From contig CACZQE010000307.1 in NCBI GenBank assembly GCA_902783205.1, positions 1-6,012 on the forward strand: a stretch of 6,012 nucleotides of DNA. The letters are read 5' to 3'. Shown in pieces: positions 1 to 6,012 of this stretch; the stretch's first letter is position 1, and every line of letters begins with the position of its first letter. The notes under the pieces were generated by a model that worked only from the letters and a program-made list of their open reading frames with translations, was not told the DNA's origin and made no database searches. Origin of the DNA: an uncultured Lachnospiraceae bacterium. GTDB lineage: Bacteria > Bacillota_A > Clostridia > Lachnospirales > Lachnospiraceae. Made by a program: the position numbers and the translations under genes.

Positions 1-1089
1 GGTATGCTCCGCATGGTCATGGGGCTTGGCACCTGCGCCGTGGACAGGATTGAAGGGTCTTACCCAAGACTGATCTCCCTGGATAAGCCCGGGGCCACCG
101 CTTTTCATACCGCCGCCGAACATCACCGTTTTTCCCAGAGAAATGTGGAGATGATCGACCGGGAGACAGGAGCCCTGGAACAGGTACCTTTCACGGTAGT
201 GGAGAAGGCTCTGCCTGCTTATCTTAAGAAAATGCTATTTGACCGCGACCGGGAGGCGGAACGCCGTCTTTCAGACAGGGGAATCTTCAGAAGCGTACCC
301 TTTGTCACATGCTCGGGTTTTGCCGATAATCCCTCTGTCATGCAGGATATGCAGGGGCTGATGAAGGTGGTGGAAAAAGAGTACGGACAACCGGTGGATA
401 TAGAGTTTACCATCAATGTGGAGGAGGACGGATCCTATGTGATCAACCTCCTGCAGTGCCGTCCTCTCCTGGTATTCGAAGACAGGACACGGCAGATGAT
501 TCCCGAAGATCTGAGTGACAGGGAGATCTTCCTGGACTGCCGCCATACATCCATGGGTCAGTCCCAGCATCTTAAACTGGACGGTATAGTTTATGTGGAT
601 CCGGTGGCCTATTACGAGATGCCCTACCAGAGAAAAAAAGAAGTGGCGGCGGCGATCGGAAAGGTCAACTGGTATTTCAGAGATCAGGATAAAAAGCTGA
701 TCCTGATGGTGCCGGGAAGGATCGGGACGACATCTCCGGAACTGGGGGTGCCTACAAACTTTTCCGATATCAGCGGCTTTTCAGCCATATTTGAAATAGC
801 GGAATCCGGGGTCGGCTACAATCCTGAGCTGTCCTACGGAAGTCATATATTCCAGGATCTGGTGGAAAACGAGATCCTGTATGCGGCAGTCTTTGAAGAT
901 GAGAGGACTGTCTGCTTCAGACCGGACAGGCTGAAAGAACTTGACAACAGGCTGGCTGACATCGAAGCAGATCTTGCCGGGCTTGAAGAAATCATCGGCT
1001 ATTACCCTGTAGAGAAAGCCGGCTGCTTTCTCTACCATGACCTCTTTGAAGAGCGCCTGGTCTGTACGATCCGGAAGGAGGAAATGTAA
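1..1089 (+). CDS. PEP/pyruvate-binding domain protein (PPDK N-terminal-like), 5'-truncated by window edge
   Basis: This is the C-terminal part of a protein related to the ATP-grasp nucleotide-binding half of PEP synthase and pyruvate phosphate dikinase. The frame is open from base 1 (a Gly codon), so the ATG at base 4 is probably internal. Numbering from that Met, GLGTCAVDR at 7-15 matches the GLGTRAVDR signature of PEP/pyruvate-binding proteins, with Cys where Arg is usual. LLQCRPL at 149-155 corresponds to the QxRP motif that closes the ATP-grasp domain. A conserved C-terminal region follows, with PGRIGTTSPELGVP at 237-250 and PELSYGSHIFQDLVE at 274-288, both typical of stand-alone members of this family. 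No phosphohistidine swivelling domain or PEP-utilising barrel follows, so it is not a complete PEP synthase, and the reaction and target are unknown. The stop codon directly abuts the next start codon, implying translational coupling. Family assignment is firm; function is not. Confidence 0.85.
   Translation, partial: GMLRMVMGLGTCAVDRIEGSYPRLISLDKPGATAFHTAAEHHRFSQRNVEMIDRETGALEQVPFTVVEKALPAYLKKMLFDRDREAERRLSDRGIFRSVPFVTCSGFADNPSVMQDMQGLMKVVEKEYGQPVDIEFTINVEEDGSYVINLLQCRPLLVFEDRTRQMIPEDLSDREIFLDCRHTSMGQSQHLKLDGIVYVDPVAYYEMPYQRKKEVAAAIGKVNWYFRDQDKKLILMVPGRIGTTSPELGVPTNFSDISGFSAIFEIAESGVGYNPELSYGSHIFQDLVENEILYAAVFEDERTVCFRPDRLKELDNRLADIEADLAGLEEIIGYYPVEKAGCFLYHDLFEERLVCTIRKEEM
1075..1081 (+). 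promoter_or_regulatory. Ribosome binding site for the multidomain gene
   Basis: AAGGAGG lies 8 bases before the ATG at 1090, inside the last codons of the upstream gene. It fixes the start of the large protein and supports co-translation with the upstream gene. Confidence 0.85.
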
Positions 1090-4000
1090 ATGGACAAAAG
1101 AGAAAGCATATGGGATTTCAGACCGGAACTGATGAGTGACCGGGAAATGATCGACCGCTTTCATATGATCCTTTCGGCTATGACCGCAGATGTCCGGACC
1201 CGCCTTGGAAATACACGGGGCCTGACGGGGCTCTTTGAAAGGCTGCGGGCAGAGGAGGACTGGCGGGAGATCCGCGCCCATCTCAGTATGATCCGGGAAG
1301 CGGGCGACCGCCTTTCGGGAGAACACAGAAATCTGGTATTAACTCAGCTCCTGCCTCTGATCTTTCATGAAAACGGGACCATTCGCCGCCAGGCAGCCGT
1401 CTGCTGCGGCGTTCTTCTCTCCCTCAGTGCCGCAGATGACGAGCCTGTATTTGAAAACACGATCGCCGGGATCCTTTTCCGTTCCGGAGACCTGGCCGGA
1501 GAGTCAGGACTCCACACGGGAAATGCTCTCCGTCTGATCCTGTCCGTTATGCTTGAGAAAACGGAAGGCGAGACCCGGAAAAAGGTCCTTCGCCATATCG
1601 GCAACTATTTCAAGTCTTCCAGGTGGGACAGGGAGGCGTGCCTGAGTCTTTTAGAGGCGGTAACGGACATTCCCTTTGACCGTTGGAGTGTCATGCAGAG
1701 GGGATATATCTGCGACTTCATGAGAAGCTTCATGAACGGGTCCGATGAGGAACTGCGTCAGGCTTCCCTGATGCTTGTGGACAAGTGGATGTGCCAGGGC
1801 TGGAAATGTACGGAAGATATGATCAGTTATCTTTGCAGCCTGACCCCGGCGGACGGGGCAAAGATCTGCGAGCATTATCTCCTGGCCCGGATCCGGGCCA
1901 TGGCTGAATCCGGAATTCCCTGTAAGGATAATGCATCAGATGATCCCGGCATGAAAACAGTTGCCTTTGACGGCGCCCTCCTCTTCCGGGAGAATCTTCG
2001 TTCCGATGATCTCTGGCTGTATAAGATGATCAATCTGGACATTTTAAAGCGCTATTATCTGACTAAAGATGCCAGAGACCTGTATATTTACGCGGTCCAC
2101 CTTTTAAATATACTCAGGCTCAATACCAGGCAGGAGGTTTTCTTCAAGGCGGGAGACGACCTGGTGGAGGTCATGCCCCTGATCGAAATGCATCAGAGGT
2201 ATGAGATCATCCAGGAAATCTTCAAGGCGATCGCCTTACGGGATGACTCCTCCAACTATCTGCCCTCCTTCCTCGGAAGAACCTTTACCGGTGTCGGGGG
2301 CCGGGAGGGAAGAGAACTGCAGAAACAGCTGCGGGACCTTTCGGACAGTCCTGATAATGACATTGTAAAAATAGTAGCGGAGACCATCTGCGTTATCATG
2401 GATAATTACAGTCCGGCTGAAGATCCTGCCGGAGAAGAAGGAAATGTTAACAGACGGCGCGAGTATCCGGGTATCCTCTGCCGCTGCATGGCAGACAGCA
2501 GGCCGGATATTGCCATAGAGACCTTCTATCTGGCGGGAGATATCCTTTTCCGGAATCCGGGCCGGGCCCTGGAAACCCTCAACGGTATGCAGCTGGTCCG
2601 CAAGATACTGATCTATATGAAGGAAACGCCGCAGTGCCATAAGAAGTACTATATGCTTCCGGTCATCCGGCAGATCTGCCGTTATCTGGATGAACTATCT
2701 GAGAGAGGACTGCCTGACGATACAGTCAGGTCCGGCCGGGGAATTGCCGTTTATTCCGGGACATTTGACCCGTTTTCCATGAGGCATAAGGCCATTGTCC
2801 GGGAAGTGGCAGATATGGGTTACACCGTATATCTCAACATACACAGTTTTGCATGGGACAGTAATTCCACCCCCATGATGATCCGCCGCAGGATCGCTTC
2901 TGTCACAGTGGCGGATATACCCGGGGTTTATCTGCTGCCGGAAGACTTTGCCCTGAATATAGAAAATACTGACGATCTGAAGAGGCTCAGGGAATCCTTT
3001 CCCGGCCGGGAGATCAGCCTTGTGGCGGGAAGCAGCCTGGCAGGTATGAGCGATGCCTATCTGCGGGAGCCGGGACCCGGCACCATACACCATTTCCCCC
3101 ACATCATATATTTTAAGAACGACAGTTACGGAGACCTGGATCTGAAGATGAGCCGGAAACGGATCTTCGGGCAGATTACGACCCTGCGACTTCCCGTCTT
3201 CTACGATGACATGTCTTCCGTGCAGATTCGGGAGAACATAAGAGAAGGAAAGGAAATCACGAATCAGGTCGATGTCCGGGCTGCCCAGATGATAAAAGAC
3301 TGGAATCTCTACGCGGATATAGACCGTACTACAAATGTGGCCCAGATGAAACCCTGCTTTATGACTGTCCGGGAGACGGACCGGGGGACAGAAGCCACGG
3401 TAACCGATGAGAGAGCAGGACGAGTCATTGCCCGGGGCAGTTATCATGAGACCGGGGACGGTGTGGTCCGGATCGACCGGATGCAGATGGGAGAAGGCTG
3501 CACTGTGGCTGAAGAGGAGCTGGCTTTTAATGAGATTATCGCAAAGTGCCAGGAAGAAGGATATCTTTATGCCGTCTGCAGCTCAGACCTGCTCAGGCCG
3601 GACCTGATGGAAAACTTCGGATTCCTCCCCGATGAGGAAGAAGGAAAGACCGGCGTCCTGGACATGCGTAAGCCCCTGGCTATGTTTTATGACGTGGCCA
3701 CCATGCTCAAAAACCCCTACTCCGGGGACTGGGAAGTCAGAAAGGCGCTGCTCGCCGGCAGGGAGCGGCTTAAGAAGGCCCTGATCAGACTCTTCCCCGG
3801 CAGCCTGGTCCTTCACTTTGATTCTGAAATTCTGAATTATAAAATCAGCCGTCTGATCCGGAACCGGGAGGGTATCCTCACGCCGGAGGAGACAGAGGAG
3901 AGCGGACGGAATGTACTCTGCGTACCTTTCGGAAAGATGCTGAAAGGAATGCGGATTCCCAATACAGTCACCAAAGTCCTCTATACGGAGAAGACTTATG

Positions 4001-4662
4001 ATAAAGAACTGAAACGATTTGAATTCAGTGAGCTGCCGGACCACAGGCCTCTGCAGACCCAGATCCGGATGCTCAAGTCCATGAATATGCCCATCATTCT
4101 TGTTGATGACGTGTATAACAAAGGATACAGGATGCAGGAACTGGATGCCCTGCTGGCTGCGGAAAAGCTGGATGTGGACCACATCATCGTAGGGTTTATG
4201 TCCGGGCGGGGCAGGAAGCTGGCCGCGGTCCGGGGCAAGAATATAGTGACCACCTGCGTGATTCCCAACATGCGGACCTGGCTTCTGGAGTCGGACCTCT
4301 ATCCCTTCGTGGGAGGGGACGGAATCAGGACGGATATTGATATTATTGCCAAGCGGGATGCCCTTCCCTCCATCAACCGCCTCCTTCCCTACCAGCGGCC
4401 GGAATTCCTGCATGGCGTGCCGGATAAAGAAGTAGTCAGGCTGTCAGCCATCTGCATTGAGAATGCACGCGACCTTTACCGGGCCCTGGAACGGGTTTAC
4501 AGCAGGCTGCATCACCGCACCCTGACCCTGGAGCGTATCAAGGAAGTCTTTCCTGAGCCCCGCTATCCGGAGGGAATCGACCTTTCCGACCGGACAAGGC
4601 ATAATCCGGTATCCCGAATCCTGGAAAGAGAAAGAATCCGCCTGGTGCGGACCTATCAGTAA
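1090..4662 (+). CDS. Large multidomain protein: HEAT-like / NadD-like nucleotidyltransferase / GNAT-like / PRTase-like
   Basis: This 1190-residue soluble-looking protein has no signal peptide or membrane segment that I can see. Residues about 80-440 are helical and HEAT-like (for example LLPLIFHENGTIRRQAAV at 87-104). Residues 551-741 resemble nicotinate-nucleotide adenylyltransferase (NadD): YSGTFDPFSMRH at 555-566 matches the GTFDPxHxGH nucleotide-binding motif and SSVQIR at 709-714 matches the C-terminal SSTxIR motif. Residues 753-848 look like a GNAT fold ending in the usual NFGF (842-845). Residues 880-1079 look like a type I phosphoribosyltransferase, with VDDVYNKGYRM at 1005-1015 in place of the PRPP loop. 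Both catalytic motifs are altered: Ser563 replaces the first His of HxGH, and the TGxT end of the PRPP loop is KGYR. Activity is therefore uncertain; it could be a divergent enzyme, a nucleotide sensor or a scaffold. It starts directly after the PEP/pyruvate-binding gene and sits 37 bases before larB. Architecture is inferred from motifs by eye; the overall function is unknown. Confidence 0.85.
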   Translation: MDKRESIWDFRPELMSDREMIDRFHMILSAMTADVRTRLGNTRGLTGLFERLRAEEDWREIRAHLSMIREAGDRLSGEHRNLVLTQLLPLIFHENGTIRRQAAVCCGVLLSLSAADDEPVFENTIAGILFRSGDLAGESGLHTGNALRLILSVMLEKTEGETRKKVLRHIGNYFKSSRWDREACLSLLEAVTDIPFDRWSVMQRGYICDFMRSFMNGSDEELRQASLMLVDKWMCQGWKCTEDMISYLCSLTPADGAKICEHYLLARIRAMAESGIPCKDNASDDPGMKTVAFDGALLFRENLRSDDLWLYKMINLDILKRYYLTKDARDLYIYAVHLLNILRLNTRQEVFFKAGDDLVEVMPLIEMHQRYEIIQEIFKAIALRDDSSNYLPSFLGRTFTGVGGREGRELQKQLRDLSDSPDNDIVKIVAETICVIMDNYSPAEDPAGEEGNVNRRREYPGILCRCMADSRPDIAIETFYLAGDILFRNPGRALETLNGMQLVRKILIYMKETPQCHKKYYMLPVIRQICRYLDELSERGLPDDTVRSGRGIAVYSGTFDPFSMRHKAIVREVADMGYTVYLNIHSFAWDSNSTPMMIRRRIASVTVADIPGVYLLPEDFALNIENTDDLKRLRESFPGREISLVAGSSLAGMSDAYLREPGPGTIHHFPHIIYFKNDSYGDLDLKMSRKRIFGQITTLRLPVFYDDMSSVQIRENIREGKEITNQVDVRAAQMIKDWNLYADIDRTTNVAQMKPCFMTVRETDRGTEATVTDERAGRVIARGSYHETGDGVVRIDRMQMGEGCTVAEEELAFNEIIAKCQEEGYLYAVCSSDLLRPDLMENFGFLPDEEEGKTGVLDMRKPLAMFYDVATMLKNPYSGDWEVRKALLAGRERLKKALIRLFPGSLVLHFDSEILNYKISRLIRNREGILTPEETEESGRNVLCVPFGKMLKGMRIPNTVTKVLYTEKTYDKELKRFEFSELPDHRPLQTQIRMLKSMNMPIILVDDVYNKGYRMQELDALLAAEKLDVDHIIVGFMSGRGRKLAAVRGKNIVTTCVIPNMRTWLLESDLYPFVGGDGIRTDIDIIAKRDALPSINRLLPYQRPEFLHGVPDKEVVRLSAICIENARDLYRALERVYSRLHHRTLTLERIKEVFPEPRYPEGIDLSDRTRHNPVSRILERERIRLVRTYQ
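1327..2409 (+). other. HEAT-like alpha-helical region (residues about 80-440)
   Basis: The translated segment is rich in amphipathic helices with Leu/Ile spacing and short turns carrying Asp/Gly/Asn then Arg, as in HEAT or armadillo solenoids. Clear examples are residues 87-104 and the stretch around SDEELRQASLMLVDKW (218-233). Individual repeats are degenerate, so repeat number and limits are approximate. Such solenoids usually bind partner proteins, which would fit a scaffold role. Confidence 0.45.
2740..3312 (+). other. NadD-like nucleotidyltransferase domain (residues 551-741)
   Basis: A beta strand (GIAVYSG) leads into GTFDP at 557-561, as in NadD and related cytidylyltransferase-like enzymes, followed by FSMRH instead of the usual IHxGH. 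His566 keeps the second His position, while Ser563 and Arg565 replace the first His and the Gly. LVAGSSL at 644-650 aligns with the NadD segment that normally reads GxD, so that Asp is also lost. SSVQIR at 709-714 keeps the phosphate-binding SSTxIR signature, and the domain ends in a helix and NLY as NadD proteins do. Fold assignment is good; substrate and activity are not established. Confidence 0.75.
3346..3633 (+). other. GNAT-like segment (residues 753-848)
   Basis: The order of strands and helices resembles a small acetyltransferase: an MKPCFMTVRE strand, two further strands (ATVTDERAGRVIARGSYHE is the second turn), the VVRIDRMQMGEGCTVAEEE turn into a helix where acetyl-CoA would bind, LYAVCSS, then a LMENFGFLPD ending. 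The usual Q/RxxGxG/A pyrophosphate loop is only weakly recognisable, at MGEGCTVAE. This may be a degenerate or non-catalytic GNAT. Confidence 0.5.
3727..4326 (+). other. Phosphoribosyltransferase-like domain (residues 880-1079)
   Basis: IILVDDVYNKGYRMQELDAL at 1002-1021 has the hydrophobic strand, paired Asp1006/Asp1007 and following helix of a type I PRTase PRPP-binding loop. The Thr/Ser-Gly-x-Thr end is replaced by Lys1011-Gly-Tyr-Arg1014. Upstream, VPFGKMLKGMRIPNTVTK (945-962) looks like the earlier strand-loop where PRTases bind pyrophosphate. Downstream, HIIVGFMSGRGRKLA fits the next strand. Substrate is not predictable by eye. Confidence 0.55.
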
Positions 4663-4685
4663 AAAGAAAGAATATGCCGGTAAGA

Positions 4686-4692
4686 GAGGAGG
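4686..4692 (+). promoter_or_regulatory. Ribosome binding site for larB
   Basis: GAGGAGG, within a purine-rich run, ends 7 bases before the ATG at 4700 and confirms that start. It lies in the 37-base gap after the large gene, where I see no hairpin terminator and no convincing promoter, so larB is probably co-transcribed with the upstream genes. Confidence 0.85.
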
Positions 4693-4699
4693 AGACCTT

Positions 4700-5461
4700 A
4701 TGCAGGCCAGAGAAATCCTGGAGCAATTCCGGAATGGAGAAATCACCATAGACGAGGCAGAGAACTATTTCAGAAAAGCTCCTTTTGAACAGCTGGGCGA
4801 TTATGCCAAGCTGGATACAAGCCGCGAGATCCGGTCCGGTTTTCCGGAGGTTGTTCTTTGCAGCGGGAAAGCCGATGCCTATCTCACGGAGATTTACAGA
4901 AAACTTTATGAGGTTTACGGGGAGGTTTTCGGTACCCGCGCCAGCGAGCACCAGTTCGAGCTGGTCCGCCGGGTCATTCCGGAGGTCACCTATGATCCTG
5001 TCTCCCGCATATTGAAATATGAAAAAGAAGACAGAAAACGGACAGGCCTGGTTGCAGTATGTTCCGCGGGAACGGCAGATATACCCGTGGCGGAAGAGGC
5101 GGCCCAGACAGCAGAGTATTTCGGATCCAATGTGGAGCGGATCTATGATGCGGGCGTATCCGGAATCCACAGGCTTTTAGCCAATACTGACCGGATCCGT
5201 CAGGCCAACTGTGTCATTGCCGTGGCCGGTATGGAGGGCGCCCTTGCCAGTGTGATCGGCGGCCTGGTGGACCGGCCGGTGATCGCCGTGCCCACTTCCG
5301 TGGGTTACGGAGCAAGTATGAAGGGCCTCTCAGCCCTCCTGACCATGATCAACTCCTGCGCCAACGGAGTGGCAGTCGTAAACATTGATAACGGATATGG
5401 TGCCGGTTATATCGCCACTCAGATCAACCGTCTGGGAACGGCACAGAAAGAGGATAAATGA
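4700..5461 (+). CDS. larB: LarB, NaAD carboxylase/hydrolase of nickel-pincer cofactor synthesis
   Basis: LarB carboxylates the C5 position of the pyridine ring of nicotinic acid adenine dinucleotide and hydrolyses the phosphoanhydride, giving pyridinium-3,5-biscarboxylic acid mononucleotide and AMP. It is the first committed step to the nickel-pincer nucleotide and acts in the cytoplasm. At 253 residues the protein has normal full length. The N-terminal part (about 1-114) carries the LarB-type FPEVVLCSGK at 48-57. The C-terminal part (about 115-245) is PurE/AIR-carboxylase-like, with CSAGTADIPVAEEA at 121-134, AGVSGIHRLL at 151-160, AGMEGALASVIGGL at 176-189 and VPTSVGYGAS at 197-206. Cys220, in NSCANGV, matches the L. 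plantarum LarB cysteine (Cys221) that adds to the pyridinium ring, so the enzyme looks catalytically intact. The gene overlaps larE by four bases. Confidence 0.95.
   Translation: MQAREILEQFRNGEITIDEAENYFRKAPFEQLGDYAKLDTSREIRSGFPEVVLCSGKADAYLTEIYRKLYEVYGEVFGTRASEHQFELVRRVIPEVTYDPVSRILKYEKEDRKRTGLVAVCSAGTADIPVAEEAAQTAEYFGSNVERIYDAGVSGIHRLLANTDRIRQANCVIAVAGMEGALASVIGGLVDRPVIAVPTSVGYGASMKGLSALLTMINSCANGVAVVNIDNGYGAGYIATQINRLGTAQKEDK
5449..5453 (+). promoter_or_regulatory. Ribosome binding site for larE, inside the larB 3' end
   Basis: AGAGG lies 4 bases before the ATG at 5458. It is weaker and closer than the sites of the other genes. With the ATGA stop/start overlap, this points to translational coupling from larB. 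Confidence 0.6.
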
Positions 5462-6012
5462 CAATAGATGAAAAATATGATGTGCTGATCGGGAATCTGA
5501 AGGAAATGGGAAGCCTGGCAGTCGCCTTTTCGGGTGGTGTGGATTCTTCTTTTCTCCTTTATGCCGCGAAGGAAGCGCTGGGGAACAGAGTATTTGCCAT
5601 TACGGCCGGATCGGTCTTCTTTCCGGATCATGAATATGATGAGGCGGTTTCACTCTGCAGGAGCCTGGGAGTCCGGCATATGACTCTGCAGGAAGATGTC
5701 CTGTCTGTGCCCGGCATCAAAAATAATCCGGCCAACCGCTGCTATCTCTGCAAGAAAGCTCTTTTCGGCCGGATGCTTGCCATGGCCCGGGAAGGCGGCG
5801 CAGCCTTTCTGGCGGAAGGATCCAATATGGATGATATGGGGGACTACCGGCCAGGTATGCAGGCCGTTGCCGAACTGGGTGTCAGAAGTCCCTTAAAAGA
5901 GGCCGGACTTGGCAAGGCTGAGATCCGGTCCCTGTCAAAGCGGTTTTCGCTTCCTACCTGGAACAGGCCTTCCAAAGCCTGCCTGGCCAGCCGCTTTGCC
6001 TACGGAGAGACC
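5458..6012 (+). CDS. larE: LarE, ATP-dependent sulfur transferase of nickel-pincer cofactor synthesis (3'-truncated by window edge)
   Basis: LarE adenylylates the carboxylates of pyridinium-3,5-biscarboxylic acid mononucleotide and replaces them with thiocarboxylates, before nickel insertion by LarC. The first 185 codons are present, of the roughly 270 usual for the family, and the frame is open to the window end. The start is the ATG in the ATGA overlap with larB. SGGVDSS at 25-31 is the PP-loop that binds ATP. NRCYLCKKALF at 93-103, EGSNMDDMGDYRPG at 120-133 and RPSKACLASRF at 170-180 are LarE signatures. Cys175 corresponds to the sulfur-donating Cys176 of L. plantarum LarE. Cys95 and Cys98 add a CxxC that the L. 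plantarum enzyme lacks as I recall its sequence, so this is the three-cysteine type, which may use a persulfide or a [4Fe-4S] cluster instead of sacrificing a cysteine. Confidence 0.95.
   Translation, partial: MTIDEKYDVLIGNLKEMGSLAVAFSGGVDSSFLLYAAKEALGNRVFAITAGSVFFPDHEYDEAVSLCRSLGVRHMTLQEDVLSVPGIKNNPANRCYLCKKALFGRMLAMAREGGAAFLAEGSNMDDMGDYRPGMQAVAELGVRSPLKEAGLGKAEIRSLSKRFSLPTWNRPSKACLASRFAYGET

Follow-up and report, generated by a model that had tools for sequence, protein, structure and literature searches.

We analysed a stretch of DNA from an uncultured Lachnospiraceae bacterium (GenBank assembly GCA_902783205.1, contig CACZQE010000307.1). The stretch, here called the window, is a 6012-bp contig in full and carries four genes, all on the + strand (Table 1). 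The longest encodes a fusion protein in which a NadD-like nucleotidyltransferase region is followed by a phosphoribosyltransferase (PRTase)-like region, and this gene lies between one for a PPDK-like ATP-grasp protein and larB and larE, genes of nickel-pincer nucleotide (NPN) synthesis. The stop codon of the PPDK-like gene and the start of the fusion gene abut (0 bp), and the start of larE overlaps the end of larB by 4 bp. An earlier note on this DNA had placed the fusion 37 bp before larB on the same strand, which the open reading frames (ORFs) confirm, and had proposed that the fusion might supply LarB with its substrate.

Table 1. Features of the window (6012 bp), with positions counted from its first base
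Feature	Position	Strand	Basis or remark
PPDK-like ATP-grasp protein ('PEP/pyruvate-binding domain'), C-terminal 362 aa, cut by the window edge	1..1089	+	PF01326, identity to the L064 protein
Fusion protein, 1190 aa, HD-less member of the HD-HEAT-NadD-like-PRTase-like family	1090..4662	+	
HEAT-like repeat match in the N-terminal half, residues 65-125	1282..1464	+	PF25801, E = 0.00088, 19.2 bits, under the Pfam cut-off of 27
NadD-like nucleotidyltransferase region, residues ~551-742	2740..3315	+	Profile matches
Nucleotidyltransferase motif I, GTFDPFSMRH, residues 557-566	2758..2787	+	R precedes H, where G or S is usual
ISSTxIR motif position, MSSVQIR in the window, residues 708-714	3211..3231	+	V where 65/66 HD-bearing rows have T/S
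Middle region, residues ~743-885	3316..3744	+	Without significant profile match
PRTase-like region, residues ~896-1080	3775..4329	+	PF00156 in 17/47 members
PRPP-type motif IILVDDVYNKGYR, residues 1002-1014	4093..4131	+	Family alignment
Fusion-larB gap, 37 bp, with larB ribosome-binding site AGGAGG at 4687-4692	4663..4699	+	
larB, 253 aa	4700..5461	+	NCBIfam NF033503, 287 bits (cut-off 175)
larE, cut by the window edge	5458..6012	+	TIGR00268, 236 bits (cut-off 150), partial ORF

A sequence scan of the gap between the fusion and larB (4663-4699) returned no terminator-like match on the + strand, in line with the earlier note, and no promoter-like match; a promoter there was what that note had named as a sign against its proposal. 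One weak sigma-70-like match lies at 4577-4605, within the fusion ORF. The fusion and larB are similar in GC content (53.6% and 54.6%). The PPDK-like part scores 34.5 bits against PF01326 (PPDK_N; cut-off 27) and is 62% identical to an 880-aa protein at another locus, L064, which itself scores 134 bits.

Taken by itself, the NadD-like region of the window gave weak matches, to NF000840 (residues 687-742, E = 0.0016), to NF006479 (residues 552-610, E = 0.021) and to CoaD structures (residues 551-613, E = 0.77 and 0.87). The profile of the protein family to which the fusion belongs found an uncharacterised protein, 3h05, as its best structure match (E = 3.8e-6), followed by NMNAT structures from 1.1e-5 and the NadD-type structure 2h29 at 1.3e-5, and PF01467 was matched in 44 of 47 family members (E ≤ 0.5). 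Judged by these matches, the nucleotidyltransferase region of the family is of the NadD/CoaD type. It shares with NadD (TIGR00482) this profile similarity and the GxFDP..H motif, but the fusion falls far under the equivalog cut-off of 112.45 bits (15.0 bits for the window and 46 bits for L022), and the window reads MSSVQIR in place of ISSTxIR, which we take to be the nucleotide-binding motif of NadD.

The other regions of the fusion are less readily classified. PF00156 was matched in 17 of the 47 members (E ≤ 0.5, best 2.6e-5); the window itself gave no match, and the relative P0093 scored 24.3 bits, under the Pfam cut-off of 26.3. Structure matches to this region in the PDB were weak (E 0.088 to 1.2) and centred on the DD motif of the phosphoribosyl pyrophosphate (PRPP) type. 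The fusion resembles type I PRTases (PF00156) in having this motif and differs from them in its low scores and in a motif that ends in R, and the region is predicted to be PRTase-like only. HEAT-like matches in the N-terminal half stayed under the cut-off. For the middle region (residues ~743-885), a profile of 26 relatives, window excluded, gave no significant match (best E 0.51), and a GNAT identity, suggested by a resemblance seen by eye, was dropped for want of statistical support.

Of 7995 candidates scored in a protein search, 742 were relatives at E ≤ 0.001; among the 120 of these that were listed, 103 are 1531-1644 aa long. The family is one of uncharacterised HD-HEAT-NadD-like-PRTase-like proteins of about 1600 aa, mostly from Clostridia. 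The window aligns with it over the nucleotidyltransferase and PRTase-like regions and so belongs to it; like the relatives P0002-P0005, it begins after the HD domain of the longer relatives, and we read it from this alignment as an N-terminally shortened, derived member. When six relatives were scanned with PF01966 (HD), the score was over the cut-off in P0007 and under it in four, and P0074 gave no match. In the alignment, however, the HD residues are conserved in the 66 HD-bearing rows (numbering of L004): H181 in 65, and H215, D216, H234, H257 and D278 in all. The same rows all keep the nucleotidyltransferase residues G557, F559, D560, P561, H566, W589, G647, D649, S710 and R714 (numbering of the window), and 65 of them have T or S at position 711. 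For the study of gene neighbourhoods we used 83 loci, made up of at least 66 from a scan of 84,980 species genomes and 19 from a 397-genome sample of one family, less two duplicates.

Most of these loci share a set of downstream genes. In the 71 evaluable loci (those with at least 1.6 kb downstream), tblastn placed a gene for a lactate/malate dehydrogenase (LDH/MDH)-like protein on the strand of the fusion and no more than 1.6 kb downstream in 66, and in 61 of the 71 a flavodoxin-type gene stands further downstream as well; an LDH-like gene is present in G235. The LDH-like profile matches L-lactate dehydrogenase structures at 7.8e-11, and R204, R269 and H293, by alignment presumably the LDH catalytic arginines and histidine, are invariant in 18 rows. 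The flavodoxin-type protein matches PF03358 (FMN_red) with 78.8 and 65.2 bits, and 38 of 39 sequences carry a C-x2-C..C..C cysteine pattern. The fusion-LDH-flavoprotein set was also found in a metagenome-assembled genome titled Flexilinea (Chloroflexota; L012), whose fusion groups with clostridial rows, by transfer or misbinning.

The fusions that lack the HD domain are a distinct branch of this family. In a tree of 71 rows built by a quick method, the six HD-less rows formed one group (SH-like approximate likelihood ratio test, SH-aLRT, 99) with long branches (1.13 for the window). One row of this tree, L112, was a wrong 2235-aa ORF on an outlier branch and was not used; the right L112 ORF entered the residue counts. 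The N-terminal HD domain with its metal ligands is absent from the window and the other HD-less rows, and position 711 is T or S in none of the six. The fusions of genomes G466, G473, G468 and G457 likewise lack the HD domain and SSTxIR, so that ISSTxIR is lost in 10 of 10 HD-less sequences. Among the six rows G557 is replaced by D in four, D560 is kept in all and H566 in five, and the window is alone in its R565 and S649. Both Asp residues of the PRPP-type motif are kept in all six, as in 65 and 64 of the 66 HD-bearing rows. As far as the aligned sequences tell, the HD domain and the nucleotidyltransferase motif were lost together in this subclade, as expected if the HD domain acts on the products of the nucleotidyltransferase.

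The redox genes are missing there as well: the 7-9.9 kb that follow the fusion at L064, L159 and L154 showed no LDH-like gene, and G001 gave no LDH-like match at E ≤ 1e-10. What the HD-less loci have in common is a PPDK-like gene that immediately precedes the fusion, in seven of seven (the window, L064, L155, L157, L147, L158 and L159). The L147 fusion is a near-copy of that of L064, and the G473 locus of that of G001; the G466 fusion is in two pieces, of which the N-terminal one starts right behind PPDK. HD-bearing members of the sister group have a PPDK-like gene directly upstream (L028, L104) or about 7 kb downstream (L008, L110), and at L061 a more distant relative of that gene stands on the opposite strand, 1.9 kb upstream. 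PPDK as a partner of the whole family was rejected on its presence in 3 of 21 fusion genomes and on the varied neighbours of 20 fusion-free PPDK loci. At L008 (18442-23349) the PPDK-like gene follows a D-2-hydroxyacid dehydrogenase gene and a MOFRL/DUF4147 gene, the latter presumably glycerate-kinase-like, in one run, and at L110 genes of 321 and 418 aa stand ahead of PPDK. The L008 neighbours suggest 2-hydroxyacid or glycerate metabolism for the PPDK-like protein.

Across the 83 loci (71 with at least 1 kb downstream, 52 with at least 3 kb on both sides), larB was never adjacent to the fusion. In three loci (L047, L116 and L120), which form one tree group apart from the window, larB is found on the strand of the fusion, 3.3-6.0 kb upstream and separated from it by larC and other genes. 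The neighbourhood survey that the earlier note had called for therefore finds the homologues mostly away from lar genes, an outcome that the note had counted against its proposal. Of fusion-bearing genomes, 7 of 10 and 40 of 67 had LarB over the cut-off in a genome-wide search that left out loci L025, L031, L044, L046, L051, L062 and L065. In the one-family sample, 13 of 21 genomes with the fusion (fusion matches over 400 bits) had LarB versus 240 of 397 overall, which is no association. A conserved linkage with larB, larE and larC, the mark of a Lar component, is not seen in the family as a whole, and its recurrence is confined to two sister lineages within the HD-less subclade. For the lar question, the adjacency in the window is not a family trait. 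One LarB, P0121, has 404 aa and repeats about 150 residues internally in tandem, which may be an assembly artefact.

The earlier proposal was that the fusion makes nicotinic acid adenine dinucleotide (NaAD) from nicotinate by way of nicotinic acid mononucleotide and channels it to LarB. LarB uses NaAD according to one report (PMC11796402), the fusion and larB are neighbours on one strand, and the profile of the family is similar to NMNAT/NadD. However, besides the loss of ISSTxIR throughout the HD-less sequences and the unlinked larB of the wider family, the window has R before the motif H and S at the D649 position, no nicotinate-PRTase family was among the Pfam matches listed (25 of the 28 matched families for the 47 members), and a separate NadD was over the cut-off in 14 of 15 fusion-bearing genomes tested. 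Only G001 had no NadD over the cut-off; because Obg over the cut-off is also absent there, a gap in this draft genome is likely, and the idea that the fusion replaces NadD in G001 was dropped. Because the HD-less subclade has lost the HD domain, ISSTxIR and the family neighbours, NaAD synthesis by the window fusion appears unlikely. We rejected NaAD supply on motif loss, the lack of family-wide lar linkage and the separate NadD, and we rate it as very improbable. LarB probably does not get its substrate from the fusion, though in the window's subclade the fusion may have a role near the nickel-pincer pathway other than making NaAD.

One such role would be that of a nickel-pincer accessory, in which the PPDK-fusion pair senses, salvages or modifies a pyridinium mononucleotide and is for that reason kept beside larB. 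This idea draws on a second sister lineage. In genome G471 (L157), larB, csoR, the PPDK-like gene and the fusion gene form one same-strand run in which neighbouring genes are about 43 or 83 bp apart or overlap by 4 bp (the csoR start is assumed at an internal Met), so that the two lineages have two orders, PPDK-fusion-larB-larE in the window and larB-csoR-PPDK-fusion in G471. The G471 fusion is, by eye, nearly identical to P0002 where both are readable, and its csoR gene encodes a CsoR-type metal-sensing repressor (PF02583, 95 bits). Because G458 (L166) has larB-larE-csoR without PPDK, csoR seems to go with lar, and its presence in the G471 run adds to the case. In both genomes the repressor that accompanies larB is His-rich and of the CsoR/RcnR type (L157:5239-5625 and L166:8809-9162), and it may be a nickel-responsive regulator of the lar genes.

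Two more species probably have PPDK and larB on one contig, as inferred from matching longest contig sizes and sources. LarB P0127 and PPDK P0251 (17197, lgn) are 94% and 93% identical to those of G471, and LarB P0134 and PPDK P0250 (16030; ncbi,ena) are 86% and 84% identical; for neither contig was a fusion seen among the 120 listed relatives. P0249 and the G466:C297 PPDK likewise agree with each other (both 10639 bp, both 60.7% identical to the PPDK of L064). In G237, with no fusion match listed, a single contig has larB and PPDK on opposite strands at a distance of 5.5 kb. The LarB-PPDK pairs, that of G237 included, also favour an accessory role.

Elsewhere in the subclade the linkage fails, which weighs against an accessory role, as does the lack of adjacency across the 83 loci. 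In the 24 genomes of the G001 genus, the fusion is present in 6, the PPDK-like gene in 16 and LarB in 20. larB is on a separate contig in G001 (absent from about 10 kb on either side of the fusion), in G457 (absent over 9.4 kb downstream of the fusion and 5.8 kb upstream) and, with larC, in G468 (1.1 kb downstream of the fusion visible), and the draft genomes G466 and G473 gave no LarB match. Five loci of the genus with PPDK and without the fusion (L165, L180-L183) showed no larB in the stretch examined, and no larE was seen beside larB in the G471 run. Two of the five HD-less lineages that have both larB and the fusion carry them together, and the two orders may reflect either one rearranged ancestral linkage or two events, which are indistinguishable. 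The lar link is thus specific to the subclade but recurrent. On balance, we hold an accessory role to be unlikely, though not negligible, and G471 offers a natural test of such a new accessory of nickel-pincer synthesis.

It may instead be that the genes are chance operon neighbours, or were joined by the assembly, without functional meaning. The window is a single 6012-bp contig (P0001), and the linkage is absent outside the subclade save for the distant upstream placement in one clade. The like GC content of the fusion and larB, the 37-bp spacing with a good ribosome-binding site and the recurrence of a larB-fusion run in G471 argue otherwise, and we consider chance a rather poor explanation. 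In view of G471, where the linkage returns in another gene order, the lineage-specific accident that the earlier note had named as refuting its proposal is not shown either, and the note's interpretation is partly supported overall.

We favour, with moderate confidence, a reading that sees in the fusion a slimmed-down, derived offshoot of a mainly clostridial family that is uncharacterised, paired with PPDK and not an NaAD synthase; any functional tie to NPN synthesis is hypothetical. By sequence, the ancestral form is a single chain of about 1600 aa in which an HD hydrolase and a HEAT-like scaffold come together with a nucleotidyltransferase of NadD-like type and a PRTase-like domain, all with putative functions; an LDH/MDH-like dehydrogenase and a cysteine-motif flavodoxin-type protein are encoded downstream. 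Its nucleotidyltransferase most likely joins a nucleotide to a small molecule or to another nucleotide, while the HD domain would remove wrong products, as in NadD-YqeK, and the product would enter a redox reaction. The window's subclade has lost HD domain, ISSTxIR motif and redox genes together and retains the scaffold, the PRTase-like core and, abutting the fusion, the PPDK-like ATP-grasp partner. This partner and the core may now work jointly on a metabolite that is phosphorylated or related to PRPP. In the window's sublineage larB-larE would have been placed behind this pair, probably co-transcribed with it across the 37 bp.

Several observations weigh against this reading. The window keeps D560, H566 and R714, and a motif change is no proof of lost activity. 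The PRTase-like assignment comes from weak profile matches, with R and not T/S as the last motif residue. A PPDK-like gene is present in 91 of 397 genomes and in only 3 of the 21 with the fusion, so that the PPDK pairing is clade-specific too. Five of the 71 evaluable loci have no LDH-like neighbour (L014, L037, L040, L057 and L064), and only L064 is HD-less. The linkage of larB in G471 favours a closer lar connection.

The nearest known parallel is the NadD-YqeK protein JCVISYN3A_0380, an HD hydrolase fused to NadD in which the HD domain is proposed to remove wrong products, according to PMC9426524. The fusion family likewise combines an HD hydrolase with a NadD-like nucleotidyltransferase in a single protein, and its HD-bearing members keep the HD pair (65-66 of 66) and the nucleotidyltransferase residues (66 of 66), as expected of a NadD-YqeK protein. 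Unlike NadD-YqeK, these proteins are about 1600 aa long with HEAT-like and PRTase-like regions and have the HD domain ahead of the nucleotidyltransferase, and a separate NadD accompanies the fusion in 14 of the 15 genomes tested; the window's subclade, which lacks both the HD domain and the motif, falls outside the NadD-YqeK type. The tight co-conservation and co-loss of HD domain and nucleotidyltransferase make the proofreading hypothesis directly testable.

A more elaborate scheme, which we regard as improbable, is a clostridial three-gene system in which the PRTase-like domain would put a base on ribose phosphate, the NadD-like domain would add a second nucleotide to give a non-standard NAD-like dinucleotide, the HD domain would proofread, and the LDH-like protein and the cysteine-motif flavoprotein would use the product. 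The window's subclade would then have been stripped to the PRTase-like core, paired with PPDK and recruited beside larB for a pyridinium mononucleotide of the nickel-pincer pathway. Should the family reading hold, there is an operon, widespread in anaerobes and encoding a nucleotide-handling enzyme of 1600 aa together with the LDH-like and flavodoxin-type proteins, to which no function is assigned in the literature searched. No publication on the fusion or the operon was found in the literature searched, most subscription journals being beyond its reach. The earlier note knew of no described role for such a protein in nickel-pincer synthesis, and in the accessible parts of the literature on it no named Lar component resembles the fusion or the PPDK-like protein.

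Within the LarB-LarE-LarC pathway, LarB and LarE of the window are ordinary members that pass their equivalog cut-offs, LarE on a partial ORF. The window larE (5458-6012) carries an SGGxDS motif and a CXXC-C cysteine pattern (RCYLC ... ACLAS). In this it is like the [4Fe-4S] type of LarE described in PMC9283937 and unlike the single-cysteine sacrificial type. At L122 (G215, 8563-13382), the fusion gene is split across frames with stops, possibly as a pseudogene or through sequencing errors.

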